Shown: one piece after another, positions 6,851-58,179 of the stretch
How positions within the stretch are numbered: the first letter of the stretch is position 1
Layout: each line of letters starts with the position of its first letter
NCBI RefSeq assembly: GCF_036417845.1
Contig: NC_089991.1
Location: 13,547,001-13,611,000 of the forward strand
Origin: Apteryx mantelli
Taxonomy: Eukaryota; Chordata; Aves; Apterygiformes; Apterygidae
Length of the DNA stretch: 64,000 bases
Reading direction: 5' to 3'
The notes under the pieces: generated by a model
Database searches by the model: none
Seen by the model: the letters and a program-made list of their open reading frames with translations, nothing else
Told to the model about the DNA's origin: nothing
Program-made: the position numbers and the translations under genes

Positions 6851-6862
6851 GGAGTTTTCAAC

Positions 6863-7504
6863 ATGGCAGCAGTGGTAGAACTCAACAACATCCATTCAGT
6901 GTCTGAAATGTCAGAAGAAGATGATGCTAAACACGGTTTTCATCACAGAATGTTCTTGGAACCTCAGGAGAAGAAGAGGAACATGAAGGCTCTGGTGGTT
7001 AAGCAAGCAAAGGAAACTTGCAGCTGCACTCCAGCCAAAGTTAAAGACTGTGTTTTCAGTCTCCTTCCTGTCTTGCAGTGGCTTCCCAAGTACAAACTGA
7101 GAGAGTATCTACTGGGAGACATAATGTCTGGTCTGATTGTGGGGGTCTTGCTAGTCCCACAGTCAATTGCCTATTCTCTCCTGGCTGGACAGGAGCCTAT
7201 TTATGGCCTTTATACGGCCTTTTTTGCAAGCATTATTTATTTCATATTTGGAACCTCCCGCCACATCTCAGTTGGCATCTTTGGTGTGCTTTGTCTAATG
7301 GTGGGACAAGTGGTGGACCGTGAGGTACAGAGAGCTGGCTATGACTTAGAGCCAGCTGCTCTTGGTGTCCATGCAGATACAGTAACATACGTAAACACTA
7401 CCATTTCTCCTGTGAATCAGACATCACGTCAGCCATTCTGTGATAAAAGCTGCTATTCAATTACCGTGGGAGCCACCATGACCTTCATAGCTGGAGTTTA
7501 TCAG
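6863..7504 (+). CDS. SLC26A2: SLC26A2 sulfate transporter, coding exon 1 (residues 1-214)
   Basis: This exon encodes the N-terminal part of SLC26A2, an electroneutral sulfate/oxalate/chloride exchanger of the plasma membrane that supplies sulfate for proteoglycan sulfation, notably in cartilage. The chosen start is the ATG at 6863, 12 nt after a strong acceptor (TTTTGTAAG, exon from 6851); the in-frame codons upstream lie in the acceptor itself. Visible features are an acidic cytoplasmic N-terminus (1-60), a conserved PVLQWLPKY block (69-77), TM1 with [12 protein letters not shown] (98-109), the [13 protein letters not shown] segment (111-123), and the near-invariant [15 protein letters not shown] (130-144). 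Two N-glycosylation sequons, N178 and N185, lie in the extracellular loop between TM3 and TM4. The exon ends in codon Q214, phase 0, at donor GTAAGA (7505). The match to human SLC26A2 is close over the whole exon. Confidence 0.97.
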
Positions 7505-9867
7505 GTAAGAGGAGGTGGGCAAACAGGCATTCTGTGGAAATAGTTTTGATTCTTCTTCAGATGATTGTCCATATGAACAGTCTGCTGGGGTTGCACATGT
7601 CCTTAATCTGCATCCCAGGGGAATGGGCACATGGAGGACAGTAGGACTCCAGTTACTTTGGTGTAAGAAACTCCTCTTTCTCCTCTCCTTATAAGGTCTT
7701 AGTCATAACTATTTACTCAAACCTGCAGAACATGCACACAGGAGGGTGGTGCAGCTTTTAATAGCATTCTGTGCTTGTTATTCTGTTACGGACCATAAGG
7801 ACCATTATGGAGCATTGCCAGACAACACTTGCTGCTCCCATAATACATCTTCCTAAGTCTGTCCCAAAACTTTTTCTTTATTAGTCCTTTATATAAGGAC
7901 TGAATTAGATTGGGGCAAAATGTGGTGTGTCAGCTTTCAGTTCCTGACTTTGGTGATCTGGCTTTTTTTTTATCAAAAAATAATCTGAACTGTAATATTA
8001 CCTCCAGTTTCCTTTTATTTGGCGTTCTTACACTGTACTTGTAAAGCTTGGCTGTTTGCCCACTCAAAGCCAGAACAAAACCATTGTTTGAAAAGGATAC
8101 TATTGAGATAATAAAATACATTTGAAATAAAACTGTTCATTATTACCATATTGAATATATTATTAAATAATATTTTACCACTCCTCTGTTTACTTCCCGG
8201 AACTCACTGCTTATTTGCTGAAATTAAAGTAGGCATCTATGTTTTTAGAGTGTCATGCATTAACCAGGAGGGATTTAATTTTAACAGTACAGCAGGGCTG
8301 TGATATTTCAGTTCAGGAGTTCACGTTCATTCGTTTCTACAGTGACATCCATAGTGATATCTATTCAGATTGTAGAGGAGAGGAAAAGGAAACATATCTG
8401 TGATACTCTAAAACATTGTTTTTAGACACAACCTAGGACTTTGTCTTGTACTGCAAGTTTGTGTTGAGTAATTTCAGTTATATTCTGGAACTCCTGACCT
8501 AGAATGGAGGTTGTGTTTCATCACTGTAGGATGTACAGAGTTTTGGAGTTGTGAATTGCATTTAATATTCTTTACAAGTACAATTAAGTTTTTTAAATGA
8601 AGAAGTCAGATTACTTCATCTTCAGTCACTCTGAATGTGATGCATAGACTTGCTGTCTTTCTGACTGCCAACCAATAGATCTTCATGCACTCACAGTTTT
8701 TTTTAATTGGAAATCCCAACCAAAATCACATTCACTCTGTATCAGAATCTTTACAGTCAAATAGTAAAAACAAGCTTCCTCACCCCGGTTGCCTGTACCC
8801 TAACTAGGTTGTTAATGTTGTTTTACAGCCAAGAAAAATTTAACTGAGTTGTCAGGGCTGTGTGGGAGCCTTTTTTAGGATGTAGAGCTGAGCCTCTGTC
8901 TAGTTAGTCCAGGCCCTAAACTTGCCTTCTCTTCAGCAGTGTTTTGCAAGTTCTTAGGAAGTTTCCAACAATGAGTCTAACCTTTTTTTTTATTATTTTG
9001 CCTTAACTACCTAATGGGATATATCAAAGTGATGCTAATTAAAATTTAATAACTGTAAGTTTTGGTCTGAAGTCTTCAGATGACAGTGTAGACAGCCCAG
9101 CTGGCCAGCTCAGGGAATTAAAGAGTTTTTAGCATATTCCGTCATAAGGCAGCGCGTGTTCCATTTAGTGTGAAGGTTGTTGGGGAGGAAGGGACATTTA
9201 CCAGGTATGAAAAGGCATCTGTAGGGTAGGTATCCATAAAGCCAGTCATTCCCTTGGAACAGCATCAAAGATTTGTCTATTCAAAATAATAAAAATTAAT
9301 GGCAAGGCACTTTAAAAATTTGTATCTATTTATAAAATAATCTACATCACAAGAATTTGTAGCACATATACTTTCTGAATCAGATAAACCAAGCTTTATG
9401 CAGTGCAAATGGAAACTATTGTGAGCTTTATTTTATTGCAGGCTGTGAGCTCGAATGCAAGACAGACAAAAGCCTAGGTTCTGGATCCCTGCAAAGTTCA
9501 TGGAGATTGTAACAACTGGAGAGAGAAATGGCAAAACTAACCAACATTTCAAAGCTTTTTTCCTTGGATTTCTTTTTTGTCAGTTAAGGGAACTAGAAGC
9601 TATTATTTACAGTTGAACCAGTGAGCAAACTATAAACGTTAGTTCAGAGTGTGAAGACCTAAAAAAGCTTGCTCTGTATTAGAAATGCATTTAAGTCTGA
9701 TGCACCAGCAGCAGCTGAAAGCTGGAGCTTTTCAGTGCTCAGACCACTCCTTGTCCTCCAAAGCCATATACGGTGGGTTTTTTTATCCCACCTCCATCAG
9801 AGCCTCACAATGATGACATCTGTAAGATTTGTATCGTAATCCATTGTGTGTGGTTGATTCCTTTCAG
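7505..9867 (+). other. SLC26A2: SLC26A2 intron 2
   Basis: This 2.36-kb phase-0 intron runs between donor GTAAGA and an acceptor of the form GATTCCTTTCAG. The same intron position, just after the VYQ motif at the start of the next membrane segment, is found in mammalian SLC26A2 and in the second SLC26 gene of this window. The DNA is AT-rich and I see no exon or recognisable repeat inside. Confidence 0.93.
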
Positions 9868-11373
9868 GTGGCCATGGGTTTCTTTCAAGTGGGCTTTGTC
9901 TCAGTGTACCTCTCTGATTCATTGCTCAGCGGATTTGTCACAGGTGCCTCCTTTACCATCCTAACCTCACAAGCCAAGTATCTCCTGGGCCTAGACATTC
10001 CACGGAGCAGTGGCATCGGCTCCCTTGTAACCACATGGATAAACATCTTCAGAAACATACATAAGACCAACATTTGCGATCTCATCACCAGCTTCTTATG
10101 CCTTCTTGTTCTCATCCCAACCAAAGAGCTTAATGAACACTTTAAATCAAGGCTCAAGGCTCCAATACCAGTTGAATTAGTTGTGATTGTGGTAGCTACT
10201 TTGGCGTCTCACTTTGGGAAGCTAAGAGAGAATTACGGCTCAAGTGTTGCTGGACACATCCCAACAGGGTTTCTCCCTCCTCGCCCTCCAGACTGGAACC
10301 TGATTCCTACTGTGGCTTTGGATGCTCTCCCCATAGCTATTATTGGCTTTGCCATCACTGTCTCCCTCTCAGAGATGTTTGCCAAGAAGCACGGTTACAC
10401 TGTGAAGGCCAATCAAGAGATGTATGCCATTGGCTTCTGCAACATAATTCCCTCTTTCTTCCATTGCTTTACAACAAGTGCAGCTCTTGCCAAGACTCTT
10501 GTCAAAGAGTCCACAGGTTGTAGGACACAGATATCTGGCATGATGACTGCTTTGGTCATCCTATTAGTCCTTCTTGTGTTTGCACCTTTATTTTATTCCC
10601 TTCAGAAATGTGTCCTTGCTGTCATAACCATTGTAAACCTCAGAGGAGCCCTGCGGAAGTTCAAGGACCTGCCCAAAATGTGGCATTTGAGCAAAGTGGA
10701 CACAGTGATCTGGCTAGTTACTATGGCATCCTCAGCACTCATCAGTACTGAAATTGGTCTTTTGGTTGGTGTTTGCTTCTCTATGCTCTGTGTCATTTTT
10801 CGAACTCAGAGACCAGAGGCACCGCTGCTTGGCTGGGTGGCAGAGTCTGAAACATATGAGTCCCTGTCTGCTTACAAGAACTTGCAAACCAAGCCAGGCA
10901 TCATGGTGTTCCGTTTTGAAGCGCCCCTCTACTACATCAACAAAGAATGCTTTAAATCCACCCTGTACAAGCAAACTGGAGTTAACCCAGTCTGGGTGAA
11001 GGCAGCAAAGAAAAAGGCAGCAAAAAGAATGCTTAGAGAGAAAGAGGTGGATTCTGGTGGCAAACCCACCAGCATCTCGGTGGAACTTGTCTCTGAACCC
11101 CTGGGGTTTCACACAATAGTGATTGACTGTTGTGCAATACAGTTCCTGGACACGGCAGGAATACGTACCCTCAAAGAGGTCTGCAAGGATTACAGAGAGA
11201 TAGATGTCCAGGTGCTCCTGGCCCAGTGCAACCCTTCTGTGAGGAGTTCCCTGATCCGGGGAGAATTCTTTAAAGAGGGGGAGGACCACCTTCTCTTCCA
11301 CAGTGTGCACCAGGCTGTGGACTTTGCATTGGGTGCACAGGAGCACAGCAGGAGCTGTGCTTCTAAAAACTAG
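9868..11373 (+). CDS. SLC26A2: SLC26A2 sulfate transporter, coding exon 2 (residues 215-715, stop)
   Basis: This exon encodes the remaining transmembrane segments and the cytoplasmic STAS domain. It opens with [17 protein letters not shown], followed by [23 protein letters not shown], the conserved IPTGFLPP and [18 protein letters not shown] blocks, and the TM10 region [14 protein letters not shown], in which A422 and K423 occupy the anion-site position next to the conserved cationic residue. The STAS domain covers roughly residues 540-700: it begins near [15 protein letters not shown], has a lysine-rich variable loop, and contains the HTIVIDC strand and the DTAG motif at 642-645. The full product is 715 aa, against 739 aa in human; most of the difference is in the N-terminal tail. 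The frame is intact, so the gene appears functional. Likely glycosylated, and expressed from the CpG promoter upstream. Confidence 0.97.
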
Positions 11374-12526
11374 TTGTGGGATGGCAGCAATCATGAATGG
11401 GTCCCCCCGCACAATGGGTGTGGGTTGATATGTTTGTATATGCATTATATACGCACTCAGACAGATAAAAAGAGGCAGGGTTGTTGTTAATGCATTGGTT
11501 ACTACTAGTGTGTTCTGCTGCTTTAATTTGCCTGCCTGGTGATTCAATAGGTGGTACTAAATGAAGGCAATTCTTAACTTGATCATGGCCTATCTGTGAA
11601 CTTAAGAGTTTACATATATATGTTCATCTCATTTCTCTTCTCTCTTGAACTTTCTGTGTCCCAGCTGCCCTCTGAGTTTAGATCATCAGCACTGAGGTCT
11701 TTATCACAACCCTGTCTTTCTGCAAGGAACTCGATTTTGAAGCTGTCTATCCTTCCTGGCTAATTGAATAATATGTGGCAGTTCATTTCTTGTCCCTAGT
11801 TCTGGTGATATGCTTCCACGTGATCACACCCTCATATTGTCTAAGGAATGACTGACAGGGACTGTATGCTCTGGAGTGATTAGTTAGTGATTTTATAGCC
11901 TCCCTGATTTTGGAACAGATCAATAAAATCTAAAAATGGAGCAACAAGTGTTAAAATAGCTTATAACCACCTATCACCTCTAGATACTTTGTCATTGTCT
12001 TCTGACAGTATAATGCAGCTAGATCCATGGAGGCATAGTTATTTGATTTCTACACGGGTCTTTACATGCCAGGAAAGTTTGCCTCTTTAGCTTGAATTCC
12101 TTTGGATAATCTGGACTGATTTTTATTCAGAGGTGATTTAGAAGTCTGATTCATGGTTAATCATTTGTTTTCCTAATATTTAGGATCTCTTTTTGAATTG
12201 CGGATGGTAGATAAGGAAAATCTCTAATTCATGAGTTTCAGCACAAGACAGCCCCTTGCAGCCAGTTTTATATGCCAGGTAGACAGAAGCATAGGCACCG
12301 AAATGAAAAAGGCTTAATAGACTATCCAGCCTCTCTCTAAATTTGTCAGTGTCACACAGATTTCATGTGCTGTTGAATACAAATGTCATTGAACATAGAG
12401 CCTTTGCACATGCCTAGTCATGATCTTTATGTAATGGGGATGGACAGGCCAAGAAATACAGGCATTAGAAAGAGAGACAGAAAATTCTTCAGCTGAAAGT
12501 TATTTCACCATATTAGTGTAAATAAA
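11374..12526 (+). other. SLC26A2: SLC26A2 3' UTR (extent uncertain)
   Basis: AT-rich noncoding sequence follows the stop codon. Canonical AATAAA signals occur at 11922-11927 and 12521-12526. Mammalian SLC26A2 mRNAs have long 3' UTRs, so the transcript may extend further than the first signal. Confidence 0.55.
11922..11927 (+). terminator. SLC26A2: Candidate poly(A) signal of SLC26A2
   Basis: This is a canonical AATAAA hexamer about 550 nt after the stop codon. No strong downstream GT-rich element is obvious. A second AATAAA lies at 12521-12526, so alternative polyadenylation is possible. Confidence 0.45.
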
Positions 12527-12529
12527 AAT

Positions 12530-15500
12530 TTCTACCTTGTTTTTAAAATTATCCAGAATAATGAAGAATGCCTGTTTTTCATGCAAAAGTACAAGCACTG
12601 ATTAGGAAAAAGTTCTCTTTTCTAAAACCAATAACACACAATTATGAAGGCAGAATTGAAGGGTTAACATTTTTACTAAATGCTAGCTATACGTAGCCCA
12701 TAGTATGTACTTGGAAGATGATGGTTCTCCCAGAGAAATTTACAGTCTGACTTGCCAATTCTTCACGGCTTTTAAAAGGGAAAAGGCATGGTACACAGAC
12801 AATATTGTTATCCTTAATAGCTCAAAAATCTTCATTCAGGCATCAGAAAGTCATAAAATGGAATATGAATCATGAAACATTTTCTAAATAGAAGTATATT
12901 TTGAGAGGGGTTTTTTTTTGAGCTAGGTCTAGTAGTTTTTCCCTACTTTCTGTGAAAGCTGAAATGGTCAAGCATGATTTCACTTTAGGAGTTAGAATCT
13001 CAAGAGGAACAATAGATAGCAGAAAGATGAATCCCAGGACTTGGCAATCCTTATATGTTAGCTTGAAATTACTACATTTTCTAGGGCATAATAGAAGCAA
13101 ATAGAAGAAATACTGGGGGCAGGGAGGGTGGCTATAGCAAATGCTAAGAAGATAACCGAGACTTCCTGGATTACATGAATTATGTTGTAGTTTTGCAAGA
13201 GGAAATGACAGATCTCCAAATATCAGAGAAAAGTGAAGCTTCCACGGTATTCAGAAACCTAAATGTTTCTCTTTCTCAGCCTGAAGGCATGTTTGCACAA
13301 GGAAATGAATCCAGAATAGCCACTGCTGATTTTTTTTCCTTTCTGCAGTAACTTCCTGTGCCAACTTTTTTATTCTGTGCTAATGCAGTTTGACTAATTG
13401 TAGTTACTGGTTTAGTATTACTGAAGTGGATTAACCTAAGCCCTATAAAAGCAGTTAATGTGTTTGAGAATACCTGCATAGGGAGTGAATGCAGACTAGA
13501 TATTAGGTTTTAAGTCCTCACCCAATTTGTTTTGTGTTCAATTCCCATTCAGAGCCCCTGGGCCAATGTCAAGAGAGAGCAGCCATACCCTTGGCAGCAT
13601 GTACAGCCAGGTTCCTGCTTCAGGAAAGCTTGTGGCTGCCTGGTCACCAATGGCCTGCTGGTGGCGGCAGGGGAGAAAGGCAGACACCTACACATGTGAA
13701 TTCAGCGGCAGGCAGTGCCAAGGCCTGGGGGAATCACTTTTCAGCATGGTTTGCTCACAGTACCAAAAGGCATCACTAGAATTTAAATTTTAACAAAAAC
13801 TTGAACATTATTTTAAACAGTAATTTTAACAGTAATATTTTTCAAGAGAGCAGAGTAGTGTGAGAAGCAGTGCCCTCCTCTGAAAGTCCTGCTGGAAAAT
13901 TAAATAAAACAGACAATAAGCAGTGTGCTTTGTTACTGTACATGTTCCTGTCAAATGGCAGCTACTCATTTTCACCCCCTTTCCAGATGTTTTCAGCCCC
14001 TCAGTCACAGCTCAGTCATGGAGAGCTGAAAGGGAGTGAAAAGAGTGAGTAGCAGATCTGGTGGACCAGGAGACTTCCTCTTAGGAAGATCAGCTGGGGT
14101 GGATAGAAATAAAGTACCATTGCTTGGGGTGATTCTTTCCACTTTACACTCAAAACTTTTCTCTTCCAGGACTCTTTCCACATTGCACAGTTGGAGATTT
14201 TTTGCCCTGTGAGCTTGTGAAGCCAAATTCTAACTGAGAAAGTGGAAACAGTAATTATTTTTCAAACGTCCTTTTTTCAAATTCAAGGTATGAAGGTAGG
14301 ATTAACAATGTTACTTCCAAGAGGTACAGGCTTTCCACAGCCAGCAGGATGCTTGCTTGTAGCTCTTGGGTATTTGCATAAAAGCACTATAAAACAGTCA
14401 TGAATTGGATATCAAAGAATTAATTTAGAATACAATTAAAAAGATACGTAGTATTGATTTGTTTAGCTAGAGTACATTTTATTTGGCCACTGTGCTGTTT
14501 GCACAGTTGTTAATGGCAATTTATCCTCTGAATTCCATTTCAAACAAAACACAAAAAAGCCAGATTAAAATGCAACAGCAAAAGCAGCCAGCCAACCAAA
14601 AGACCAACTTTTTGTGTTTATATTTAATATAATGTCCAGAGGTCATAGCTTATGCTCTGTATTAATGCACACAGCCCCGGTTAGAAGGGAGCAGAAATAA
14701 ATACCAGTTGCTGGAGCATTCAGTAGAATAGTCCTTTGGCATTAATTAAAGATTAGAGCTTATCATGATTGGAATCTCTTAAAACAGTGGTTTTCAGCCT
14801 TCTTCCTTATACGCCATGTACTAATTTTTTATCAGAGGCATGAATCTAAGCAAATTTAAGCCTACTGGCTACACTTTTTTGAATATGTTTTATGGACCCT
14901 TTAGAAGTGATTCAGCTTCACATTTAGGAATCAGGGACCACATATTGACAATTGTTGCCCTAAAGAATTTGTTTTGTAAAGGAATTTTAGATTTTTTTTA
15001 TTTTTTTTTTGCTGATGTATGATGTATGCAGCAGGTATACGTGTCCAATTGTGCCCTTGTGATGTGCCTGTTTCTGTCCTGGAAAGAACTTTTCTGCCTT
15101 GAACACTCTTAAATAACTAGCAGCACTCAAGTACCAGATTTCAAAAGGGGAAGTCTGCCATACCTCCTGTCTTCTAGCCTACCACAAAGCTTAATTTGTG
15201 ATCTATAGGCAGATGAAACCCCCACGATCATTTTTGTAAGCATATGGGAGTATTCATCTGTCAAAAACAGTGACATTAATCCCAAATGCAACCTTCAGAA
15301 CTCCAGACCAGAGTCGCAGATTTTATAAACTAGCTGAACTCCATTGACTCTGTTCCCAAGTGTCCTAATCCAGCAATTATCAGTCTAAATGAGGAATTAA
15401 AAGATCATTAGCACATTCATTAATGATAACAACACAACATTATGGAAATTAATACTCACAGTCTCAGCTATACTCTTGCCAAATGTCAGTCACTCTTTTT

Positions 15501-18500
15501 ACGTTTATTGCTGCTATAAATAGTAGTTTCAATTGCTCCTAATGTGGCAATTGCATTAATAAATGATTCATTTGTGTGAATGTTTTCATACTGAAACAAT
15601 TTTCAGTCCACTTCATAAAACAGGGAAATGTACTGCAGTGATGTATATCATACTTATTTTGGGGTTTATAATGACATCATAAACCTTAGTTTTCTGCAAT
15701 TTAGTGATCCTGATTTCCTTGTAAATCATTGCAGCTCCATTTATTATTCTCTAATACACTGCAAGATGCATGTCTTCACCCACTTTGACACTTGCTTCTG
15801 TGTTTTGCTATGAATGACATTGCATATGATTGACTGTAAATAGAAGAATCATTGCCTTTGTATGTATTGCTATTACCTGTGACCTGCTACTCAGTTTTGA
15901 TGCCAAATCTTTTGATAAGGCTAAAGCTTCTCAACAAAGAATGTAAAACCAAACCAACCCCGCTCTGGGTTCTGAGGTTGGGAGAAGGGGACTTCTGGGC
16001 AGCCGGCAGGGGAGTACCGCTGTGTATATCCCCTTCCGTGAGAGGGCATGCCCTGGAGCCTAAGCAAAGTATGCGAAGGGCAAAGTATGCAAGAGTTTGT
16101 GTAGATGGACGAGTAATAGTGCCTTCCAGGAAAAATAAGGTAATATAGAGATGTCTTTGTTACGAAGATACTATGTATACACAGCTCTGTGCCTTTTTCC
16201 ATAATGAGTGTAATAGTAACATGGGGACCTAGTTCCTGTTCAGTGCTGCTGTATGAGTCAGTGTTCCATGCTATGTATAGAAGGGATTTCTGTTTTCATG
16301 CTTATTTATTTTTGTCTAATTTAATTTAATTCTGCACTTGGCTCTCCCATTCTGGATGGCTGAGCTTCCATTACTTCTGCACTCATTCCCCATCTGGCTA
16401 CAGCAATGAACAGAAAGCTTCTGTCTCTCTCAAGAAAGTAACCAGCAAGTCCTGCACCTCTACTAGCTTCTGCTGGCTTCTGCTAAAGGACACTGAAATC
16501 CATTGCTGATGGGTCTGAAGTGCAGAGCCAAGATAGTGCAGGCAGGAGAGCATTCTGGCCGCGGCACTGGGGTTTAAGTCAGTTGATACCCACAGCCTCC
16601 CACAGTGTCGTGCTGAGATCAGCTGTGAACTCGTGTCTGTGTTGGATCCTTGATCTCCATTGCAGTGCAGGCTTCCATGGTGTGGTTCAGGCTTTCCATG
16701 GCCAAACCTTAATTGAGAAAACCAGCAATATTGCATGTCTCCTTGGGTCCAGTTCCTCAGCTCTTTCACCTAAGGGCAGTGTGAACTGCCTGTTCGCCAC
16801 CACACTTAGCCCTGTGCCGTGGGCACCAGTGCTGTTGGTGCTAAGAGTTTTTAAGTAGGTTGGAACCGAGTCACCCATGCATTTCCAGTGTGATCCTCAT
16901 TTCAGAAACAGTGCAGAAACACCCAGGCTGGCCTTGCACTGAGCCACACAGGTGCAGAGCTCGCCTGGACTCTGCACTGGGACTCAACTCCTCTGTGCTC
17001 TCACTTCAGCCTGGAGGCATGGCTGGCCAGTAGGAAAGCACTGGTCTAGAAGATCATAGAAACTGGAGCAAGAAGAAATCCTAGTAGCTGAGGGTGAAAC
17101 TATTTAGGCAAATAGTTTGTTTCAGGGTATTTTCATCTGTTTTTTTTTTTTTTTCCTCACACACGCTCTTTGCAAAAATGATTTAATGACTGAGGTGATC
17201 TAAATTTTTATTTTAATTTTTTTACTAACATAATTATGCTAATGAAGCTGTGATGCAGATAGCAGCCGTCTACTGCTAATGCAATATAAGGTGCTTTATA
17301 ACTGTATAGCTTATTTTGCTTTGCTGAATCTCAATCTAGGATACCATTATAAGATTTTTATATTGATATAACTGTCCACACTAGAAGGGTTTTGCACTTT
17401 TACTATGCTGGCATAGTTAAAAGGGGCAATGCCTTTAGTGCAGACAAGGCACTGTGCCTTTGCACTGTGAATAAACTTGTTAAGTCACAAGAATTACTTG
17501 CACTTGGTTATCTAGTTTGGAAGCCTTTGTATGATCAGCTGCTTATGTGAAAAACTGCCTGATCTTTTCTATTCTAATCAAATTCCACCTGAAGTGGAAC
17601 TAATTTTTAAGTCTTTCTTTATTTTTTAAGATCATTACAATGCTAGAACTGAGGCCTCTGGTTAGGTAATATGGCAGATATTTAAAAAATATATATATTT
17701 AGTACATGGTATAATTAGTGCCTTTCTGTTTTATTTCCTACAGATGATATAAACTAAGGTGTGTTGCTATTTCTCTAATACACAAATATGCAAACTATTA
17801 CAGTATTTGATGGTGAGTCAAATCTCTATTGAGTAAATTTACTGCCAAAAGTATTTGAACTCCTGATCTATCCAGCTCTGCAAGCACTTAATTCTTAGCT
17901 GGGTTCCAAAATCATCTCAGGAGTCCACAGGAAGATAGGAGGATAAACATTTCACTGGACTTGTGTCCAAGTTTTTAATGTTTAATCTTTGACTTTAGAA
18001 AGAAAATTTTAATGTGTATCTGAAATGCAGCTGAAACATGATTAAACAGAGGTAAAGCTTCACTTTGGGAAAGCTTGATTTTCACTTAAAACTTCACATG
18101 GGAAGCACCTGATTTGAGTTCATCAGCCTCTTGAGTCACTCACCATCTTCTCTGGTATCTTGGTATGTTCTGGGGTATGATTGTTGAACTATTTTAAATT
18201 CAGAATAATTAGGGGATACTATTTGTGACATATTATTTTGCAGAATAAATAAAAAGGCAAATTTTGCCTAGAGTAGGCTTTTCAAGCTTGGAAAATCAGT
18301 CTGAGCAAATAGAACCTCAGAGGTGGAATAGATCACATTGGTAGGCTGACCGAACACATTTGCAAAGCAGTTTATTTGAATGAAGTTTGGAAATCTTGTA
18401 TAGTATATTCCAAAGATCACCTTGTTTTCTTACCATGATTATCTGTGAAGTACAAATGTTGTAGCAAATCCAATGAGGTGTAATATTTCCCACAAGTCAA

Positions 18501-19777: not shown

Positions 19778-19783
19778 GGACTG

Positions 19784-21973
19784 GTGGAAGATGTGAAGGT
19801 TGGGGGCTGCCTTGGCTGCAGTGACCATGAGATGGTGGAGTTCAGGATCCTGCAAGGAGGCAGCAGGGCACCAAGTAGGATCGCAACCCTGGACTTCAGG
19901 AGAGCAAACTTTGGCCTCTTCAGGGACCTACTTGGAGGAATCCCATGGGTGAGGGCCCTGGAAGGAAGGAGTGTTCAAGAGAGTTGGTTAATATTCAAAC
20001 ATCACTTCCTCCAGGCTCAAGAGCGGTGCATCCCTATGAGTAGGAAGTCAAGCAAAGGAGGTAGGAGACCTGCATGGATGAGCAAGGAGCTCCTGGCAAA
20101 ACTCAACCAGAAGAAGGAAGTATACAGAAAGTGGAAAGGGAGACAGGCCACTTGGGAGGAATATAGGAATGTTGTCAGAGTATGCAGGGATGCGACGAGG
20201 AAGGCTAAGGCCCGTTTGGAATTAAATCTGGCTAGAGATGTCAAGGACAACAAGAAGGGCTTCTTCAAATACATCAGCAGCAAGAGGAAGACTAGGGAAA
20301 ATGCGGGCCCTTTGCTGAATGGAGTGGGTGCCCTGGTGACGAAGGATGCAGAGAAGGCAGAGTTACTGAATGCCTTCTTTGCTTCAGTCTTTACTGGTCA
20401 GGCCAGCCCTCAGGAACCCCAGACCCTGGAGGCAAGAGAGAAAGTCTGGAGAGAGGAAGACTTTCCCTTGGTGGAGGAGGAGTGGGTTAGAGATCATTTA
20501 AGCAAACTTGACACCCACAAATCCATGGGCCCTGATGGGATGCACCCACGAGTGCTGAGGGAGCTGGCGGATGTTATTGCTAAGCCACTCTCCATCATCT
20601 TTGAAAGGTCATGGAGAACAGGAGAGGTGCCCGAGGACTGGAAGAAAGCCAATGTCACCCCAGTCTTCAAAAAGGGCAAGAAGGAGGACCCAGGGAACTA
20701 CAGGCCAGTCAGCCTCACCTCCATCCCTGGAAAGGTGATGGAGCAGCTCATCCTGGAAGCCATCTCCACGCATGTGGAGGAAAAGAAGGTGATCAGGAGT
20801 AGTCAGCATGGCTTCACCAAGGGGAAATCATGCCTAACCAATCTGATAGCCTTCTATGATGGAATGACTGGCTGGGTAGATGAGGGGAGAGCAGCGGATG
20901 TTGTCTACCTAGACTTCAGCAAGGCTTTTGACACTGTCTCCCATAGCATCCTCATAGACAAGCTCAGGAAGTGTGGGTTAGATGAGTGGACAGTGAGGTG
21001 GATTGAGACCTGGCTGAATGGCAGAGCTCAGAGAGTTGTGATCAGTGGCACAGAGTCTAGTTGGAGGCCTGTAGCTAGCGGTGTCCCCCAGGGGTCAGTA
21101 CTGGGTCCAGTCTTGTTCAACTTCTTCATCAATGACCTGGATGAAGGCACAGAGTGCACCCTCAGCAAGTTTGCTGATGATACGAAACTGGGAGGAGTGG
21201 CCGATACGCCAGAGGGCTGTGCTGCCATTCAAAGAGACTTGGACAGGCTGGAGAGGTGGGCAGAGAGGAACCTCATGAAATTCAACAAAGGGAAGTGCAG
21301 GGTCCTGCACCTGGGGAGGAATAACCCCAGTCACCAGTACAGGCTGGGGGTTGACCTGCTGGAAAGCAGCTCTGCTGAGAAGGACCTGGGAGTGCTGGTG
21401 GACACCAAGTTAAGTATGAGGCAGCAATGTGCCCTTGTGGCCAAGAAGGCCAATGGTATCCTGGGCTGCATCAGAAAGAGTGTTGCCAGCAGGTCGAGGG
21501 AAGTGATTCTCCCCCTCTACTCAGCCCTGGTGAGGCCACATCTGGAGTACTGCGTCCAGTTCTGGGCTCCCCAGTACAAGAGGGATGTGGCACTACTGGA
21601 GCAAGTCCAGCGAAGGGCCACAAAGATGATTAGGGGACTGGAGCATCTCTCTTATGAGGAAAGGCTGAGAGAGCTTGGCCTGTTTAGCTTGGAGAAGAGA
21701 AGGCTGAGAGGAGATCTTATCAATGTGTACAAGTATCTGAAGGGAGGGTGTCGAGAGGATGGGACCAGACTCTTTTCAGTGGTGCCGAGCGACAGGACGC
21801 GAGGCAATGGGCACAAACTGAAACACAGACAGTTCCATCTTAACATGAGGAAAAACTTTTTCACTGTGAGGGTGACAGAGCACTGGAACAGGTTGCCCCG
21901 AGAGGTGGTGGAGTCTCCTTCTCTGGAGATATTCAAAAGCCGCCTGGATGCAATCCTGTGCAATGTGCTCTAG
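19784..21973 (+). pseudogene. CR1 ORF2 remnant: endonuclease C-terminus plus reverse transcriptase
   Basis: A 729-codon frame without stop or frameshift encodes the end of the AP-like endonuclease (SDHEMVEF motif near residue 13), a linker with the conserved [12 protein letters not shown] block (about residues 92-103), and a non-LTR reverse transcriptase. RT hallmarks are [52 protein letters not shown] and the catalytic FADD at residues 463-466 (21170-21181). The C-terminal region ends a few residues before the 3' UTR, as in other CR1 elements. The frame opens without an ATG, so it is a truncated remnant, not an expressed gene. The lack of disabling mutations over 2.2 kb points to a relatively young insertion. 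Confidence 0.93.
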
Positions 21974-22038: not shown

Positions 22039-22062
22039 TTCTGTGATTCTGTGATTCTGTGA
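22039..22062 (+). repeat. CR1 terminal octamer repeat (ATTCTGTG)3
   Basis: About three tandem copies of ATTCTGTG end the CR1 element. CR1 LINEs use such short direct repeats at the 3' end, where other LINEs have a poly(A) tail. They are part of the signal recognised by the element's reverse transcriptase. Confidence 0.9.
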
Positions 22063-25000
22063 AAAGCCCAGGACAGCCATTACCTTTAGCAGAGTAACTC
22101 TGATTCCCACTAATACGGAGCTGAGATAATGGGGTTTCAATCAGTAGCACCCTTCATTGGTGCCACTGAAGACCCTGCCTTATCTGCAGGCAGCTGTAAT
22201 TCTCTCCGTACACATTCCTGTGCGAGGTCAGGCGTGCCTGCCCAGTCCCGTGTGGGAGCCTGGCTGGTGGAGGCTGCTTGGGAAAGGGTGTACCAGCAGT
22301 AAGGGGAGGGGGCCTGCTCCTTACAAACCTCCTGGTAAGCAGCAGGCTGAAAACTTCCTGAACACTCAGGCAAATGGCTTCAGCTTTTACGCGCATTTCA
22401 TGAAGCTGCCTAATCCCTTTTCTCAAAGCCTTGGATTCCCACACATCCTGTGACAGCAGGTTCCACAGAATTTGTATAGTGTGGGAAAGTTTTTTATTTT
22501 GTTTAAAACTTAATAGCAGATACAATCTTGCCATAGGGCAGGTAGTTGGAGAAGTGCCACTGTTCCTGTTTCTCTCCTTGGCTTCTTTACCTATCTGCTG
22601 GAGCATTTTTCTTTCTTGTGACACTGAGCTGTGACCTCTCTGGGGTCCCTCTCCACCGTATGTGCTCTTCTGTCTTGGTGTGCAATTAGCTAGAGTTGAA
22701 TGGCTGAACTATCTCTGTTTCTCAGCCAGCTTGGGAGCCAGCCAGAGACCTCTGCCCGACTCCATGGCTTCTGTGACACTGCAGCAACAGGCTGTGATGG
22801 GGAGAAAGCTGTGTTAACTGCAAATAGGGTGACCCTATCAGCCAGCCAACAATTACAGGGGGAAGTGGCATCCGGTCAGCATGGCCTCAGTACCATGGAG
22901 GGCTCAGACGTAATGCAAACAAGTCAAGCCTGAAATGATGCAAAACAGCCTGGGCTGAATGCCAATCAGTATAAAACACAAACATGTCTCCCCATTTTTA
23001 TTTCATTGTAATTCATCTGGAATCAATTTAATCCATTTTCAGAGCCATTATAGAATTTTAAATTGTTAGCCTAATAATTTGGAAAAGGGTCATGAGCACT
23101 GAACATTTGTCATGTGGGAAAAAACATGAAAACAACAACAATTCCCCACAAAAGTTAGCAAGGAATCATTTTCACTCTCCGTATATAAACAGGAAATGCT
23201 CCCCAAATCCTCAGGCTGATGTACTTTGAAGTGCTCTCTTCTTCCATCTTCTAAGAGTGGGCACCAGTGTTGAGGCTGGTAGCAGGGCATTTAGAGGGTG
23301 GACCCCCAATGGCGAGTCCTCAATAGCTGAAAGGTTGGTGTGGCATGTTCGACCTCTGCAGCCACTGCACATCTGTTTAGATCTACTATTCCTATGCTGA
23401 TTCTTTCCAAGAACACATATTCCATCATACATCTTTGAAAGTACACTAAAAAAACATTCCCCATACATCTGTCTTCATGGCCCATTGTTGGGAGTGAGCA
23501 GTACTTTGAATAGATGCTCTTTAGGGTTATTTATTTGTAGGTTTTGTTGGTTCTTCCCAACCTTTAAAGTATAGTGATTGCACTGACGTACAGTCAAAGG
23601 GAGAGTGATGATTTTGGCCTTGCAATGTTAATGTCCAAAGAGGATTTATCTTTGCCTTTCATTCTCTGCTGTGACACCCTGCGCATTATCATGAACTGCC
23701 CTACAAAATAACAGGAGGCTGGAAAAGCTGTTTTGTTATCTGGGATGATCTAATGTAGGACTTTCAGGTTCTCTGGTGTTCTCTTGTAAAAACCTAGGAG
23801 AGGCTCTGTCCAGCTCTTTTGTCCTCAGGCATTTTTCTGCATTTTACCATATCTCAGCAGTGGGAACAACTCTGGGATTGTCTTCTTTTCTTTGTTTTTC
23901 TCTTTAAAAAGTGACGTTTTGCAGATGTCTATGTCTTGGCAGCTCTTTTCAAGTGGAACTGAATGAGCAGCCATCCAAAATGACAGTCTGAAATCCAAGA
24001 GCCTCAGATCTGAAGAGAAGGAAAAGCAGCTCTCATAGATATCTGGCACCATTACCTGGCCTTCTTGCCATTTTTTTTAAAAGAGATGGCATGCGATCTA
24101 AGTAACTGTGAAGTAGCAGGTACAGCCATGTACTAAGGCAGGCTGGTCCATATATGGAGCCAAGACATGCAGGATGTGACTTGAAAGACTTCAAGGAGCC
24201 AAATAGTCATAAGTGTATTCGCAAGCCTTAAATCAAACAAAAACTCCTTGTGCAGCGCAGTTAGTCCTGTTCCAAAGAAAATTACTATATTTACTAAGAT
24301 GCCAGCTAGTCCCGTTAAATACAAGCTATTCATTGACACAGCAGTACAGAAGCAAACTCTTTATGTTTATCCATTGCAACAGGCCTGGGTAGGCAAGGCC
24401 AAAAACAAACGTGGACCCAGACAATTTAATCATAACTTTTTCTACTGTAGGATAGGATACCATGTCACCAGCTCACTGTAAGAATGAAATAGTCTTCTAC
24501 TACATTTTCATTGTGCCTAGAACTTGGGTTTTCATGCTCTATTTCTAGCTGGTTGCAGTGGCTGTTGCATAGATTGATGTTACATTGCTCACATACCAGT
24601 TTGGGGGTTTTATGCTTTCTGCTTGTCTTAAAAACAGAGGGATGTCCTGTCTACACTTTCATTGTTCAAGTTAATGCTCACCATCTGTCCAACCCAGCCT
24701 TTCCTAGGGTGGAGTTAAACAGTTAAGTGAGTTTATGATGGCAATAAAGACCAACCTTAAAAGATGCTTTTGAAAACAAACGTTTAATTTTACTAGTTTA
24801 ACTACAGTGACCTTGTGTTTGGAAGGCATTGCACTCTTAGCCAGCTCAAGGTCACATGAAATTCTGTACTGGATTGCTTTTTTAAGCTTGTCTGTTGTAC
24901 ATTTTCTAGAGCAAATGTAAAATGTTTTTAGCTTCTACCCTTCTTGCCTCACCTCATACAAGGGAAGTGATTTCAGAGATGTACACAGTATTCAGTGCAA

Positions 25001-26291
25001 GGAAGTACATTCTTACATCCTTGCTGTCAGGATGGAGAATATAAAATGACCTCTCCTCAGTGCCCACTGGCTAAATTTCCACAGAAAAGAAGACTAAGCA
25101 AAAGTTGCTCTAGAATGAAGGCCCTCAATTTCAAGGAGTTCAGCGTTGAGAACCTGACACAGCGAAACCAGCTGGAACAAAGAGCTCAAGGACTTAATTG
25201 CAGGGAAAGTTCGGAAAGTTGTCACGTTTTAAAGTTGAGGATACAGAAATAACTGGGAATTTGCTCCCAAGAAAGGGAAAAAGATCATGTAGTGAAGGCT
25301 TCAGGCTTAGTTAGAAGGATAGTCACAAAAAAGAATGACAGAGGAAACAAAAAGACTACAAGCAATGGAAAGAAGAACTGATCAGCAAAGAAAACTATGC
25401 CTGTGAGAGGTGAGAGGTGAAATGAAGACTTACCCAGCTATGTCAAGTGGTAGAGGAAATCATATCAAACAAAAAAGTTCCACTACATAAATGAAGATGG
25501 AATTTGGAAGGAAAAGAACCACCATATAGTGAAAGCAGAATAGAAATTGAAGGTAGTCTAGATACTGCCTCAAATGAAAAGAGTACTAAGTCCCATTTTC
25601 ATGGTGGATAGTAAGGCTAACCACACTGGATGACAAAATTGGAGATACAGAACTGGAAATGACCACTTCCTAAATAAGATCAAAAAATCAAAGAATAGAT
25701 TGTGCTCGGATATGTTTCATCCCAGAAAACAAACAAAAGACCAGCCTCGCTTAACCACCAGTTATTCAATGACTGAATTTCAAGGAGAAGGAATCATAGA
25801 GAAAGTGGAAGTTTGGTTCACTTACTAAGAAAGAAGATGGAAAAGGAGAATTAGCAAGTAGAGACAACATCAGACAGGTCAAGATACTCAATGAGCTATG
25901 ACTAGGAAGGAGTATAAAGCATATGAAAAGGTCATCTTTTAAGGATACCAGGAATAAAAAGGCTAAGGAAAGATCTAGTCTATTAACGACAAAAGGAAGT
26001 AGGGAAAGGGGAGCTATCAACAGACAAACCTGAAAAGATATGAACTGTAGAGAAATGGCAGAGAAAAAGAGTCTAGTATAAATAGATAAATACATTGAGC
26101 AGCTGTCTCCCCTACAACATGTTCTCATTTTTTCCTGTTGCCAGAGAGCACTGATGTTTCTCATTCATTTACTTCTAATTACTGAGATGTTCTTCCACTG
26201 ATGAGATAAATGTAATTCAAGAGGCAGATCTTCCCCTCCTCTTTTCTCAGGATGTCTCCCCAGCATCTAAATCAAAGACTTGTGAAAATGG

Positions 26292-26330
26292 CATCTCTCC
26301 TTACCCCACATCATCTCTCCTTACCCCACG
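26292..26330 (+). repeat. 20-bp tandem duplication
   Basis: The unit CATCTCTCCTTACCCCACAT is followed directly by a second copy differing only in its last two bases. It is a simple local duplication with no evident function. Confidence 0.85.
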
Positions 26331-26364
26331 GGCTCTAAGTCCCCTCCCCAAGCCCAGAACAAAG

Positions 26365-26445
26365 TCAGTGACAGAAGCAGAAGTAGGAACCGAACTGCCT
26401 GACTGCCAGGCTTTGTCCTGCTCCACCAGACAGCAGCACATCCTG
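26365..26445 (-). repeat. Possible MIR/tRNA-SINE head fragment
   Basis: The stretch GTGACAGAAGCAGAAGTAGG, then AACCGAACTGCCTGACTGCC, then CCACCAGACAGCAGCAC resembles the reverse complement of the tRNA-derived head of MIR-type SINEs, including a B-box-like GGAACCGAACT. It is short and diverged, so the call is tentative. Confidence 0.35.
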
Positions 26446-27401
26446 CCAAAATATTACAGACTCAGTGGATGGGAAAGAAACGATGGAGAATGAGATGAGA
26501 CTGTGCTGAGAGGTCTAATGTAGGTAGTTGTCAAGGAGCACAAGAGAAGAACAGTTATTACTAGTATTTGAGGCTATTGTTTCATGGTGATGAGACATTA
26601 TCTCTTTCTCTGGCCACTAGTGCTATTGCTCACGTTTACTTATAAAAAAAATAAAAGCCTCCACTTTACTGAACTGTGCTTACTTCTGCAAAGCAAAATC
26701 CCCTTTTACTTGTGCTATGGTCTCTATAAGACACAAGTAAAATGTGGATTGTGCAGATCTCACACACATCAAGTTCTCTCTATCACTAGCTAGAAATAAC
26801 CCATGTCATCACAACTTTGCTTTCAGTGGAAAAGTCCTTGTACAAAGCCCTTCTGAAGCAAGACATTGTTGACTCTGTGTAAATGTGTGAATGCTGTCTG
26901 GCATAACAGAGGTGGAACCACTCAGAGAGTGGTCTGGGACACAACTACGCCTTCATGTCTCTGTGCAGCTATGCTGTATGTAGCAAAGTACATAGGTTGG
27001 ACAGTGCGGTGGTGCCTGGTAGGAACTCACTGATAGAAAAGCTATCAGGAAACAAAAGTACTTTTGGAACAATTCAGACAAAATCTTGTCCAGAATAGAT
27101 CAAAAGCTGTGAGGGGAAAAGTGCAGTAGGGCTTAGCCGAGGGAACTCAGTTCATGGAGGAGCGGAGGAGCGATGCAATAGCACATGCAGGAAGATTTCT
27201 GTGCATTGTTCTCCTTGTTTAGCAAACACATCTCCAGATACCAGCAATACTGTTATCTGACAGGAGTGCTTATCTAAACTCCTTCAGTCATTCTTAATGG
27301 GCAGAACAAGTTTTCATCAAAAATATTCTCTCACAATGATGTTTGTTTTCAAAATACAGCCCTGTTTGGCTGTTTGCACTGTCTCCATCAGCTGGAGCTA
27401 G

Positions 27402-27536
27402 ATAAAAGGGCCAATTGTTTGGCTGGATAATTCAGTTCTCTTCGGAGAGAAGCAACATATGATCCAGAAGGAAGGCAAAGGAAACAGGTTTGCAATTGTT
27501 TAGCTCATGCTTTCTCTTCTCAATGTATGTTGTGAG
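27402..27536 (+). promoter_or_regulatory. Candidate TATA promoter and first exon of the SLC26 paralog
   Basis: A TATA-like box, GATAAAAGGG (27401-27410), is followed 31 bp later by an initiator-like TTCAGTT with its A at 27434. A good splice donor, GAG followed by GTGAGG, lies at 27536/27537. This gives a hypothetical 103-nt noncoding exon, 1.7 kb upstream of the acceptor at 29229-29230 that precedes the start codon. The gene has no CpG island of its own, so a TATA-type promoter is plausible. Each element is short and could occur by chance. Confidence 0.3.
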
Positions 27537-29243
27537 GTGAGGAGACAGGTTAGTCAGCAGATGAGAAGCTCCAAATAGTTTCTGGGGGGCCCAAAGAAGG
27601 CACACAGTGTATCCCCCTCTGCTCCATGCAGTCAGAGGTAAGAGCTCTGGGTCAGGACCAGTAATGTGAAATGAGGTTGTAGGGTAGGGGAAGGGGATTT
27701 TTCATCATCCTGGTTCCATTTCCAATCTGCAGCCAGGCTAGGTCTTCATTCAGGAGTCACTGAATGCTTCTGTTTGTATATTGTTTGGTTTTGACAGAAA
27801 GTTATGTTTTGTTGCAAAAGTATATACGTTATTTAATCAGATCAAAAAAATAGCATGCATTCATTCTACAAATACCAGCCCTGTGATGGGCCTGTTTGAA
27901 GCAAGCCAGCAATGTAATTCTCTTTTTCTTGTCTCATCCATGCTTTACAAGGAGGGTGGCTTTCCTGATAATTTTCCAGGAGCCAGAGACATCAAATCAC
28001 AGTTGGTAACTGTGGGGGATTGTTTTCAGCCTCAGTCGTTTAGGGCATCTTCAGAATGGGATGGTCTTTAAGAAAGCATGGAAATAGGATTTGGTGAGCT
28101 TTCTAAGGAATCTCCCAAGGTCAGAGTTCAGCAACATGATTTTATGTTAAGTGAATGATTTTGATCATTTCTAGTCAATAAGACAGAGTCATTGAAAGGG
28201 CAGTTGGTTACCTGGCAGCACTCAGAAAATACTTAGTTTTCTTGAAATTGTTCCTAGACTGCTATCATTTCACTAGTATGTCACGATTCATAGCATTGCC
28301 ATACACTCCGCATTTCTGTCCTTGTCACAAAAATTCGTTGTTCAATCAGGATAGTTCAGTCCTGTAAAAAAACTAGTAGTTACAGCACAAATAATTAATA
28401 CCACAAAGATGCCAACATCATGAAAATCATTTGTCAAAACTAATGTTAAGAAGTGATACCAGCAGAATCCAGTTCTGATTTACTGGTGATTTGCCAACAT
28501 AGAGACACACGGTATAGAACAGTGTGGAAACAGGAATTCCCTGATTCTGGAGGAAAAATCTGTGATTTCAGAATTAATTTGGTTTTGAAACAAAACAAAA
28601 AACATCTTGAATTTCCCTGTTTAATTTAATGATGGGGTGAAAAAAACAGAAGAAGGGAAACGCTGGCTCAGTTGAAAGACTTTCTTTAGCGCCTGCTGTT
28701 TTTAATATATAACATATTTCAAAAATTTAAAGGAAAAATGAATTTGCAAATAGCCTCCCTTACCCATGCATTACATTCCTAGAACACCACATGGAATATG
28801 TCATCATTTTCAAAATAGCTCTTGCCTAAGTGGAAGTGTCATCAAGACATGCAGGGTTTCTCAAGAAGTTTTAGTTTCAGTGAAGTCGTATCTGGTAGGG
28901 TAGGGATCTCAGAAGATTCTGCTGTCCTGTTTCAAATCAAGAGCTGTGTCTGTAAGGGGCACGGTATTGTCTGTAGTTCTGTCCCTAATGTGGGCATCTA
29001 TGGCAGCATGAATGCAATATAAACCACAGTCATTCAGGGCTGTGGCTAATCAGGTCCATAACTGATAACAAACAAATCAACTGGCATGACAGGAAGGTTT
29101 GATTTGTCTGAAGCTATTTGCCTTCATCTATTTATCCATGCAATCTACATGAGCCCTGGAGCTAAGCAAAGCACATTATGTACATGAATGCAATACTTCA
29201 TGGGCATGCCTGCTCTCCTGTCTTACTTAGATCTCCTGGTGCA

Positions 29244-29861
29244 ATGGAGGACACGTCAAGTCAGAAGTCAGGACGGAGCAAAGACATACGGAGCTCCCTC
29301 ACGCCAGAAGAGTCTCCTGTCCATTTTATACACATCAGGTTGGAGGAATATGAGCCTGTGAACCTCAGCACCCAGGATCTCATCCTAAAGAAAGCCAGAG
29401 AGGTCTGCCAATGCAATCATCAAACTATCATCACCTTCTTCTGTCACCTGTTCCCAGTGTTGGACTGGCTTCCCCGTTACAATGTCAAGACACAGTTGCT
29501 TGGGGATGTCATATCTGGGCTGTTGGTGGGGATAGTTGCCATTCCTCAGTCCATCTCATATTCCCTATTAGCGAACCAGGATCCCATCTATGGAATCTAC
29601 ACCAACTTCTTCTGCAATATCATCTACTTTGCTATGGCCACTTCGCGCCATAACTTCGTTGGCTCCTTTGGTGTCCTGTGCCTGATGATTGGGCAGTCTG
29701 TGAATCGGCACCTTCAGCTAGCAGGGTACAGTGACGACAATGCTGGCTCATCACCGATGGGGAATTCCACCTCCTCCGCTAATGGGACAGGTGCCTGTGA
29801 CAGGAGTTGCTATGCCATCACTGTGGCCCTTTCCTTAAGCTTTCTGGTTGGTCTTTACCAG
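29244..29861 (+). CDS. SLC26 sulfate transporter paralog, coding exon 1 (residues 1-206)
   Basis: This exon encodes the N-terminal part of a second SLC26-family anion transporter, a tandem neighbour of SLC26A2. The start is the ATG at 29244, 13 nt after an acceptor (CCTGTCTTACTTAG, exon from 29231); this layout mirrors SLC26A2 exactly. Visible features are a hydrophilic N-tail (1-60), the PVLDWLPRYN block (71-80), TM1 with IPQSISYSLLAN (100-111), the DPIYGIYTNFFCN segment (113-125), and ATSRHNFVGSFGVLC (132-146). The last replaces the near-invariant family form GTSRHISVG. Sequons N174 and N180 sit in the same extracellular loop as in SLC26A2. The exon ends phase 0 after VGLYQ at donor GTACAA (29862). 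Likely a plasma-membrane sulfate or related anion exchanger. The best family match is the SLC26A1/A2 clade, not the mammalian SLC26A2 ortholog. Confidence 0.93.
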
Positions 29862-30651
29862 GTACAAATGTTCACTATTGTGCTGTTTCCTCTCTGTTCT
29901 TTCTTTGTCTCAGTTCAGACTTGAGTCACAACAAACCTTGGCTGAAATGACTAGACCTGACACTCTTGAACTGTAGTGATTTAGAAAACCCCAAACACAC
30001 CTGACTTTGGGGTTGTGCTTTCCCCAGATGATAGGCCAGATCCTTAGATGTGTCTGAAACACGCTTAGGATCAGACTTGGCAAGGGAGGGAAGGGAACTG
30101 TGAACTACCTTCCCACCATCCCAGTCCTGGACCTGGGCTGATTCCTGGTGTAGTTTAGGGCTGCCCTCCAGTTCGAGCAAGTCCTCTAAGGACTATGCCC
30201 TCATCAGGGACCCCTCTAAAGGCCATTCTCCCTGGAAATGTCTCCACTGCCTAAGCCTAGCTGTTAGTAGGCAACTTCAGCCCCTTTCACTGGGACAACA
30301 AAAATTCACTGCATCACACTGTTTTTGCCACTAAGTGATACTCATAAGCTGCTTTGATTTAGCTACCCTTGGACTCTTAGTGTTAACTGCAGCCTTGTTT
30401 CTTTTAAGGAGACAGCGACAGGGACCTTGAAGTCTTCTTTGTATGGCATTTCTAGACACAGACAAGTCTAGGTCTCTTTAGTTTTCCATACCCCAAACTA
30501 ACTACTTAAGATAAAGTCCTCTGTCTTGCACTGAATGCTCAGCAGACAGAGTAGCCAGATATGCTAAAGTGGAAGCAACTGACATAAATTGCTGGTCACC
30601 TCTTCCAGCCCTTCTCATGGATGTTAAAGGTATGACTGGCTTTCTTTTCAG
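29862..30651 (+). other. Intron of the SLC26 paralog
   Basis: This 790-bp phase-0 intron has donor GTACAA, weaker than that of SLC26A2, and acceptor TTTCTTTTCAG. Its position corresponds to the intron of SLC26A2, which supports descent of the two genes from a common two-coding-exon ancestor. No repeat or exon is seen within it. Confidence 0.92.
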
Positions 30652-32247
30652 ATCCTGCTGGGGGTTTTACAGCTGGGCTTTGTGTCTGTCTACCTGTCAG
30701 AACCTCTCCTCAGCGGCTTTGTGACTGGCTCCAGCCTCACCATTATCACCTCCCAGATGAAGTATCTCCTGGGAGTGAAAATCCCTCGTCATGAAGGGGT
30801 GGGGTCCTTCATCTTGACGTGGGTTGACCTTTTCAGATACATCCAGAACACCAACATCTGTGACCTGGTGACCAGTCTGGTTGCTTTGGCCATCATTGTG
30901 CCTGTCAAAGAGATCAATGATCGGTATAAAGACAAGATGAAGGCCCCATTCCCCATAGAGCTGCTGGTGGTCATTGTAGCTACAGTACTATCGTACTACT
31001 TCAACTTTGAAGAGCGATACAAGTCTGCTGTTTGTGGGGACATCCCCACTGGCTTCAGGAAACCCACCCTACCAGATACAAAACTCTTTTCCAGCCTAGC
31101 AGTTGATGCTCTGCCCATTGCTATTATTGGCTTTGCCATGACTGTCTCCCTGGCAGAAATCTTTGGCAAAAAGCATGGCTACGCTGTTCGTGCCAATCAA
31201 GAGATGGTCGCCATTGGCATGTGCAACTTGATCCCTTCTTTCTTCTACTGCTTTGCCAGCTCCGCAGCCCTGACCAAGACTCTGCTGAAGGAATCCACGG
31301 GGACCCAGACGCAGGTCTCTGGCCTGGTCACCTCCTTGGTGCTGCTGCTAGTGCTGCTGTGGATTGCTCCACTCTTTTACTCGCTGCAAACATCCATCCT
31401 GGGGGTAGTCACCATTGTCAACTTGCGGGGTGGCCTGAGGAAGTTCTGCGACACCCCCCGAATGTGGCAACTCAGCAAGGTGGACACAGTGGTGTGGTGG
31501 ATGACCATGCTGGCCTCCACACTGATCACCACAGAGATTGGGCTCCTTGTGGGTGTCTGCTTTGCTCTGCTCTGCATCATCTTCCGCACGCAGAGACCCA
31601 GGGCCGCGCTCCTGGGCAAGGTCAGCAACTCGGAAATCTATGAGGATCAATCCACTTACAAGCAGCTCAGCAGTATTGCCAACATCAAGATCTTCCGCTT
31701 TGAGTCATCTCTTTACTATGCCAACAAGGACTATTTCAAGACTATTCTCTATCAGAAAACTGGAGTAAACCCTACTCTGCTGGCTGCTAAGCATCGAAAG
31801 GTGGAAGCCCAGGCAAATGCAGACACAGGCAAGAGCAAGAGCTTTTTCTGCACCAGATCTGACTGTCTGAAACCTGCCAAGAAAAAGGCTGAGAAATCTC
31901 CAGCAGATGTCTGTCCTCCTTCCGTAGATATGCACACCTTAATCATTGACTGTGGGGCTATGCAGTTCATAGATACAGCGGGTTTCTCTGTGCTAAAGGA
32001 GATGCATCATGACTACAAGGATATTGGTGTCCAGGTACTCTTGGCCAACTGCAACCCTTCCATCCGCCACCTGCTCCAGGAGGGAGGTTGGGCTGGCAAG
32101 ACAGACTGTGGCAGCCAGTTGGCTTTCCACAGTGTCCATGATGCAGTGAAGTTTGCTGAAAGGTGGTATCATGTGCAGCAGGAGAGCAAGGAGAAAAAGG
32201 ATGCTCTCCTGGACCCTGAAGACCTGAACTTCCAGGCATCTTTGTAG
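30652..32247 (+). CDS. SLC26 sulfate transporter paralog, coding exon 2 (residues 207-737, stop)
   Basis: This exon encodes the remaining membrane segments and the STAS domain. It opens with [17 protein letters not shown], then [63 protein letters not shown] and the TM10 region SAALTKTLLKESTG, with T414-K415 where SLC26A2 has Ala-Lys. The STAS domain includes FRFESSLYYANKDYF, a lysine-rich insertion somewhat longer than in SLC26A2, HTLIIDC and DTAG at 647-650. Features shared with SLC26A1 (IPRH.G, DRY, YANKD) mix with features of SLC26A2 (KESTG, GVNP). The complete protein is 737 aa, normal for the clade, with an intact frame. In birds such a gene is probably annotated as sulfate transporter-like. 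Its ligand cannot be decided from sequence. Confidence 0.94.
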   Translation: MLLGVLQLGFVSVYLSEPLLSGFVTGSSLTIITSQMKYLLGVKIPRHEGVGSFILTWVDLFRYIQNTNICDLVTSLVALAIIVPVKEINDRYKDKMKAPFPIELLVVIVATVLSYYFNFEERYKSAVCGDIPTGFRKPTLPDTKLFSSLAVDALPIAIIGFAMTVSLAEIFGKKHGYAVRANQEMVAIGMCNLIPSFFYCFASSAALTKTLLKESTGTQTQVSGLVTSLVLLLVLLWIAPLFYSLQTSILGVVTIVNLRGGLRKFCDTPRMWQLSKVDTVVWWMTMLASTLITTEIGLLVGVCFALLCIIFRTQRPRAALLGKVSNSEIYEDQSTYKQLSSIANIKIFRFESSLYYANKDYFKTILYQKTGVNPTLLAAKHRKVEAQANADTGKSKSFFCTRSDCLKPAKKKAEKSPADVCPPSVDMHTLIIDCGAMQFIDTAGFSVLKEMHHDYKDIGVQVLLANCNPSIRHLLQEGGWAGKTDCGSQLAFHSVHDAVKFAERWYHVQQESKEKKDALLDPEDLNFQASL

Positions 32248-58169: not shown

Positions 58170-58179
58170 GTAAGGCAGC

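Follow-up and report, generated by a model that had tools for sequence, protein, structure and literature searches.

The locus analysed here is, with high confidence, the avian tandem pair of SLC26A2 and SLC26A12, in which the intact SLC26A12 gene is a paralog, of ancient origin, of both SLC26A2 and SLC26A1 and, judged by homology, encodes an anion exchanger whose role would overlap that of SLC26A2. The window, by which we mean the whole stretch of 64,000 nucleotides that was analysed, covers C14:13547001-13611000, and the profile search covered the 1.5-Gb assembly with its 408 contigs. Both genes in the window are intact, lie on the + strand and have two coding exons, and they encode proteins of 715 aa (SLC26A2, gene 1) and 737 aa (SLC26A12, gene 2). 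The features are the following:

1..1250, no strand assigned: CpG island by the tile criterion, putative SLC26A2 promoter and untranslated first exon region
6863..7504, + strand: SLC26A2 coding exon 1, 214 codons, ending in ..GVYQ
7505..9867, + strand: SLC26A2 intron, GT-AG, phase 0, 2363 nt, after ..YQ
9868..11373, + strand: SLC26A2 coding exon 2 with stop, remainder of the transport domain and the STAS domain
29244..29861, + strand: SLC26A12 coding exon 1, 206 codons, ending in ..GLYQ
29862..30651, + strand: SLC26A12 intron, GT-AG, phase 0, 790 nt, after ..YQ
30652..32247, + strand: SLC26A12 coding exon 2 with stop, remainder of the transport domain and the STAS domain

An earlier note on this DNA had described two complete SLC26 genes on the same strand about 18 kb apart, and this was confirmed, with 17,870 nt between the stop codon of SLC26A2 and the ATG of SLC26A12. 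The exon anatomy it gave, a coding exon ending in ..YQ, a phase-0 intron at the equivalent residue and one long last exon, was also found, and the acceptors it placed 12–13 nt before the ATG can be read by eye as candidates, 12 nt upstream in SLC26A2 and 13 nt in SLC26A12. Each protein carries the Sulfate_transp domain (E = 2.4e-132 in SLC26A2, 3.3e-117 in SLC26A12) and the STAS domain (1.8e-19 and 5.6e-17) above the curated Pfam cut-offs, which places both in the SLC26 / SulP family. A tblastn search of the window with both proteins, at E up to 10, gave no third SLC26 copy, the best match outside the exons having E = 0.89. The Sulfate_transp search of the whole genome gave at least 31 matches (at least 51 candidates scored), and among the matches listed the four exons of the pair occur once each, with neither gene seen in a further copy.

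Gene 2 is almost certainly SLC26A12, a gene that is already described and named. In the available text of Nagashima et al. 2024 (PMC11145369), slc26a12 forms a tandem with slc26a2, on whose downstream side it lies; coelacanth, amphibians, reptiles and most of the birds examined have the gene, mammals, lungfish, ray-finned fishes and cartilaginous fishes lack it, and in owls, penguins, egrets, ducks and most of the turtles examined it has been lost or is a pseudogene. That a duplicate is missing from mammals, as the earlier note had it, is thus borne out by this survey as far as its text is available. The part of Torii et al. 2025 at hand (PMC12357937) gives two coding exons, with an intron place common to slc26a1, slc26a2 and slc26a12. 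Gene 2 is the downstream neighbour of SLC26A2 on the same strand, it has two coding exons with the intron, in the alignment, where SLC26A2 and the SLC26A1 of the same genome have theirs, and it is distinct from both of these. Gene content, order and orientation in the window equal those published, the two coding exons and an identity of about 50% to SLC26A2, lower to SLC26A1, likewise correspond, and compared by the published description in the text available no difference from slc26a12 was found (PMC11145369, PMC12357937). We infer the orthology from position, structure and identity pattern; among the 24 PDB sequences listed as matches there was no entry named SLC26A12. The locus extends the published SLC26A2-SLC26A12 pattern by one genome, and it gives an intact instance of a transporter gene that is absent from mammals and has been lost separately in several bird and turtle lineages.

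The earlier note had further held that the second gene is a non-orthologous paralog and not SLC26A1. That gene 2 would instead be an SLC26A1 relocated to the SLC26A2 locus could be argued from its place in the A1/A2 subfamily and from the common intron place, but contig C44 of the same genome carries a further intact member of this subfamily with two exons (C44:11456284-11459813; L009:4285-7814), near an exon of the PDE6 family. Its exons, C44:11456284-11456928 and C44:11458290-11459813, encode 722 aa if the start codon is assumed, and the phase-0 intron follows ..YQ at the same place as in the window pair. The top of the listed Sulfate_transp matches consists of three genes, each of two exons with the second one long: the two in the window and this one. 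The PDE6-family exon lies about 80 kb from it and matches the alpha subunit in PDB at 69.3 bits and the beta subunit at 67.7, so PDE6A and PDE6B are not told apart by the exon alone. The gene is taken as the SLC26A1 locus because PDE6A is reported missing in birds and non-avian reptiles (PMC4906994) and slc26a1 is published as adjoining pde6b (PMC11145369), in the text available of each. SLC26A12 is 53.4% identical to SLC26A2 (372/696, both from the window) and 47.9% to the SLC26A1 of this genome (337/704), and SLC26A2 and SLC26A1 are, at 56.3% (387/687), closer to each other than either is to SLC26A12. A further neighbour of SLC26A1 is presumably IDUA. With a separate, intact SLC26A1 on C44 of the same assembly, gene 2 is not SLC26A1 in a new place; such a translocation was rejected, and we regard it as extremely improbable. 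The claim of a non-orthologous paralog stands.

The rank order of these three identities is the same as the published one, 49–52% for A12-A2, 45–47% for A12-A1 and 52–54% for A2-A1 in the available text of PMC11145369. We built a tree (LG+G4) from six sequences, SLC26A2 and SLC26A12 of the window, SLC26A1 of the same genome, the SLC26A2 chain 7xlm and the prestins 7lgu and 7v73, the last three taken from the 24 PDB sequences listed. We take 7xlm and 7lgu to be human proteins. In IQ-TREE the window SLC26A2 and the 7xlm chain pair at 99.9/100, against SLC26A1, SLC26A12 and prestin, and SLC26A12 falls outside this pair and apart from SLC26A1. Gene 1 is thereby SLC26A2, as the earlier note had proposed; it is identical to 7xlm at 498 of 669 positions (74.4%), and its match to this chain scores 1126.9 bits, that of gene 2 797. 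SLC26A12 and SLC26A1 form separate long branches, 0.52 and 0.48, and the position of SLC26A12 nearest to the prestin root has support of only 61.2/68 in IQ-TREE and 0.844 in FastTree.

The position of SLC26A12 outside the pair of SLC26A2 sequences speaks against a copy confined to sauropsids, and the duplication of SLC26A2 and SLC26A12 appears, on the tree and with 7xlm taken as human, to be older than the split of birds and mammals. The available text of the naming paper does not fix when the duplication took place (PMC11145369). The earlier note had left the choice between an ancient duplicate and a sauropsid gain; the former is upheld by the tree and by the published occurrence in coelacanth and amphibians (PMC11145369, in the text available), and the latter is not. 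The genes are adjacent, on the same strand and of equal exon structure, as would be expected if SLC26A2 had been duplicated in tandem recently or only in sauropsids, or if the assembly were at fault. The window SLC26A2 is, however, 74.4% identical to the 7xlm chain as against 53.4% to its own neighbour, and the SLC26A12 branch is about as long as that of SLC26A1, which makes fast evolution alone an unlikely cause. Both recent duplication and misassembly were rejected on the 99.9/100 pairing and the published occurrence, and we consider them highly improbable.

The two genes differ from each other by 0.378, 0.256 and 0.625 per site at the three codon positions, with an NG86 dN of 0.425 and a dS of 2.68, which is saturated. 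The codon differences together with dN and dS fit a long history of purifying selection on the pair. As to the promoters, CpG islands were called from 500-base tiles with GC of at least 0.55 and a CpG observed/expected ratio of at least 0.6, and by this criterion there are only two in the window, at 1-1250 and 57501-58750, with none between SLC26A2 and SLC26A12. SLC26A2 probably starts in the island at 1-1250. Because no island lies between the two genes, the SLC26A12 promoter is probably non-CpG and tissue-restricted, which would be in line with the frog RT-PCR, where slc26a12 was detected in larval gill, skin and fin (PMC11145369, in the text available). The same lack of an island, and the repeated loss in birds and turtles published in the available text of that paper, could also point to gene 2 being a pseudogene. 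This is quite improbable and was rejected, since the reading frame is open through both exons up to the stop, the intron has canonical splice sites and the two Pfam domains score far over the cut-off.

The available text of PMC11059360 lists which SLC26A2 residues surround chloride and sulfate, and from this list 12 pocket positions were mapped: 125, 129, 164–167, 439–442, 490 and 491. The SLC26A2 of the window is identical to the 7xlm chain at all 12. SLC26A12 is identical at 10, the changes being I164S and A441T, both of which add a hydroxyl; it retains Q125, Y129, K442 and N490, where Gln125 is the partner of Lys442. The SLC26A1 of this genome, which shares subfamily, intron place and phase with SLC26A12, keeps 9 of the 12 and differs from 7xlm by G166S, V167L and N490S, that is at positions other than those changed in SLC26A12. 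The prestin chains (7lgu, 7v73) have Arg at 442, Phe at 129 and Ser at 441. Over the aligned part SLC26A12 is 53.8% identical to 7xlm (359/667), and it has the Sulfate_transp and STAS domains in common with the SLC26A2 structures (7xlm, 8tnw; PMC11059360, in the text available). The comparison thus yields two concrete positions, 164 and 441.

It was also observed that the sulfate-site text of PMC11059360, in the part available, lists a Q225 from TM1. The contiguous row of the 7xlm chain agrees with this paper at 125, 439 and 490. Position 225 of the row is Val, where the three proteins from this genome have M, L and L, and ..YQ has its Gln at 233, so Q225 is probably a misprint for Q125, and position 225 was set aside. 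For the same reason the idea of an intron at a sulfate-contact residue was dropped.

The naming paper leaves the function of slc26a12 to future work in the text available (PMC11145369). From its sequence the most likely function of SLC26A12 is sulfate/anion exchange overlapping that of SLC26A2, which is described in the available part of PMC11059360 as an electroneutral exchanger with an elevator motion. The protein would sit in the membrane as an anion exchanger, with an SLC26 transport domain and, on the cytosolic side, a STAS domain; going by homology, it would be of the elevator type and move sulfate, probably also chloride, OH- or oxalate, via the pocket between TM3 and TM10, in a role that overlaps SLC26A2. 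The retention of the pocket residues supports such an elevator-type sulfate exchange. We infer the substrate, the dimer form, the tissue role and any redundancy.

Two of the 12 pocket positions differ, however, so SLC26A12 may have a substrate other than sulfate, and the added hydroxyls would leave room for altered selectivity. It is conceivable, though unlikely, that SLC26A12 carries mainly another anion, such as chloride, bicarbonate, iodide or oxalate, as the changes I164S and A441T bring one hydroxyl residue to the TM3 end of the pocket and one to its TM10 end, and both prestins carry Ser at 441; but SLC26A12 keeps K442, Q125, Y129 and N490, whereas in the prestins 442 is Arg and 129 is Phe. 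A doubtful possibility, which we put forward tentatively, is that the anion site of SLC26A12 has been re-tuned, combining a Lys of the SLC26A2 type with added hydroxyls at the TM3 and TM10 ends, and that the protein has a transport job of its own under a tissue-restricted promoter. If this is true, the losses that recur among birds and turtles would follow a physiological change rather than redundancy alone.

Frames 42–52 kb upstream of the window are PPARGC1B-like, with an RRM domain present and an N-terminal motif that we take to be that of PPARGC1B. In human, PPARGC1B and PDE6A presumably lie upstream of SLC26A2. A search of C14:13477001-13661000, run without a positive control and with frames of at least 25 aa taken from a 20-kb part of the PDE6 region on C44 as queries, turned up no PDE6 exon, and none of the 52 matches listed in the whole-genome PDE search is on C14. 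Both negatives fit the published loss of PDE6A (PMC4906994, in the text available). A TRIM-type gene with RING, B-box and TRIM coiled-coil domains is seen about 12–16 kb upstream of the window, on the + strand (C14:13530805-13535325; L022:3805-4665, 7900-8325); we know of no TRIM-type gene upstream of SLC26A2 in human. The flank frames considered were those with a GC below 0.68; of the 45 listed, 10 were searched in Pfam and 4 of these had a match over the cut-off; one flank frame searched against PDB gave no match.

Frames in both window and flank were ranked with assumed amino-acid frequencies. Ten window frames, nine of them from the 46 ranked non-SLC26 frames, were searched in Pfam, and no neighbour gene could be named within the window, because they gave only a LINE reverse transcriptase above the cut-off (two others were below it, E = 0.22 and 0.16). 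The island at 57501-58750 is strong and probably the promoter of the next gene, whose exons were not named by Pfam on the window frames. No Rfam families at gathering scores and no tRNA genes by tRNA scan were found in the window. Between SLC26A2 and SLC26A12, at 19778-21973 on the + strand, there is an open frame of 731 aa with an RVT_1 match (E = 5.7e-34), probably a LINE with a well-preserved frame and presumably of the CR1 type. A 90-aa frame at 36375-36644 (+) has a fairly high codon score without a Pfam or PDB match, and a perfect tandem repeat of two copies of 23 bases is located at 40169-40214.
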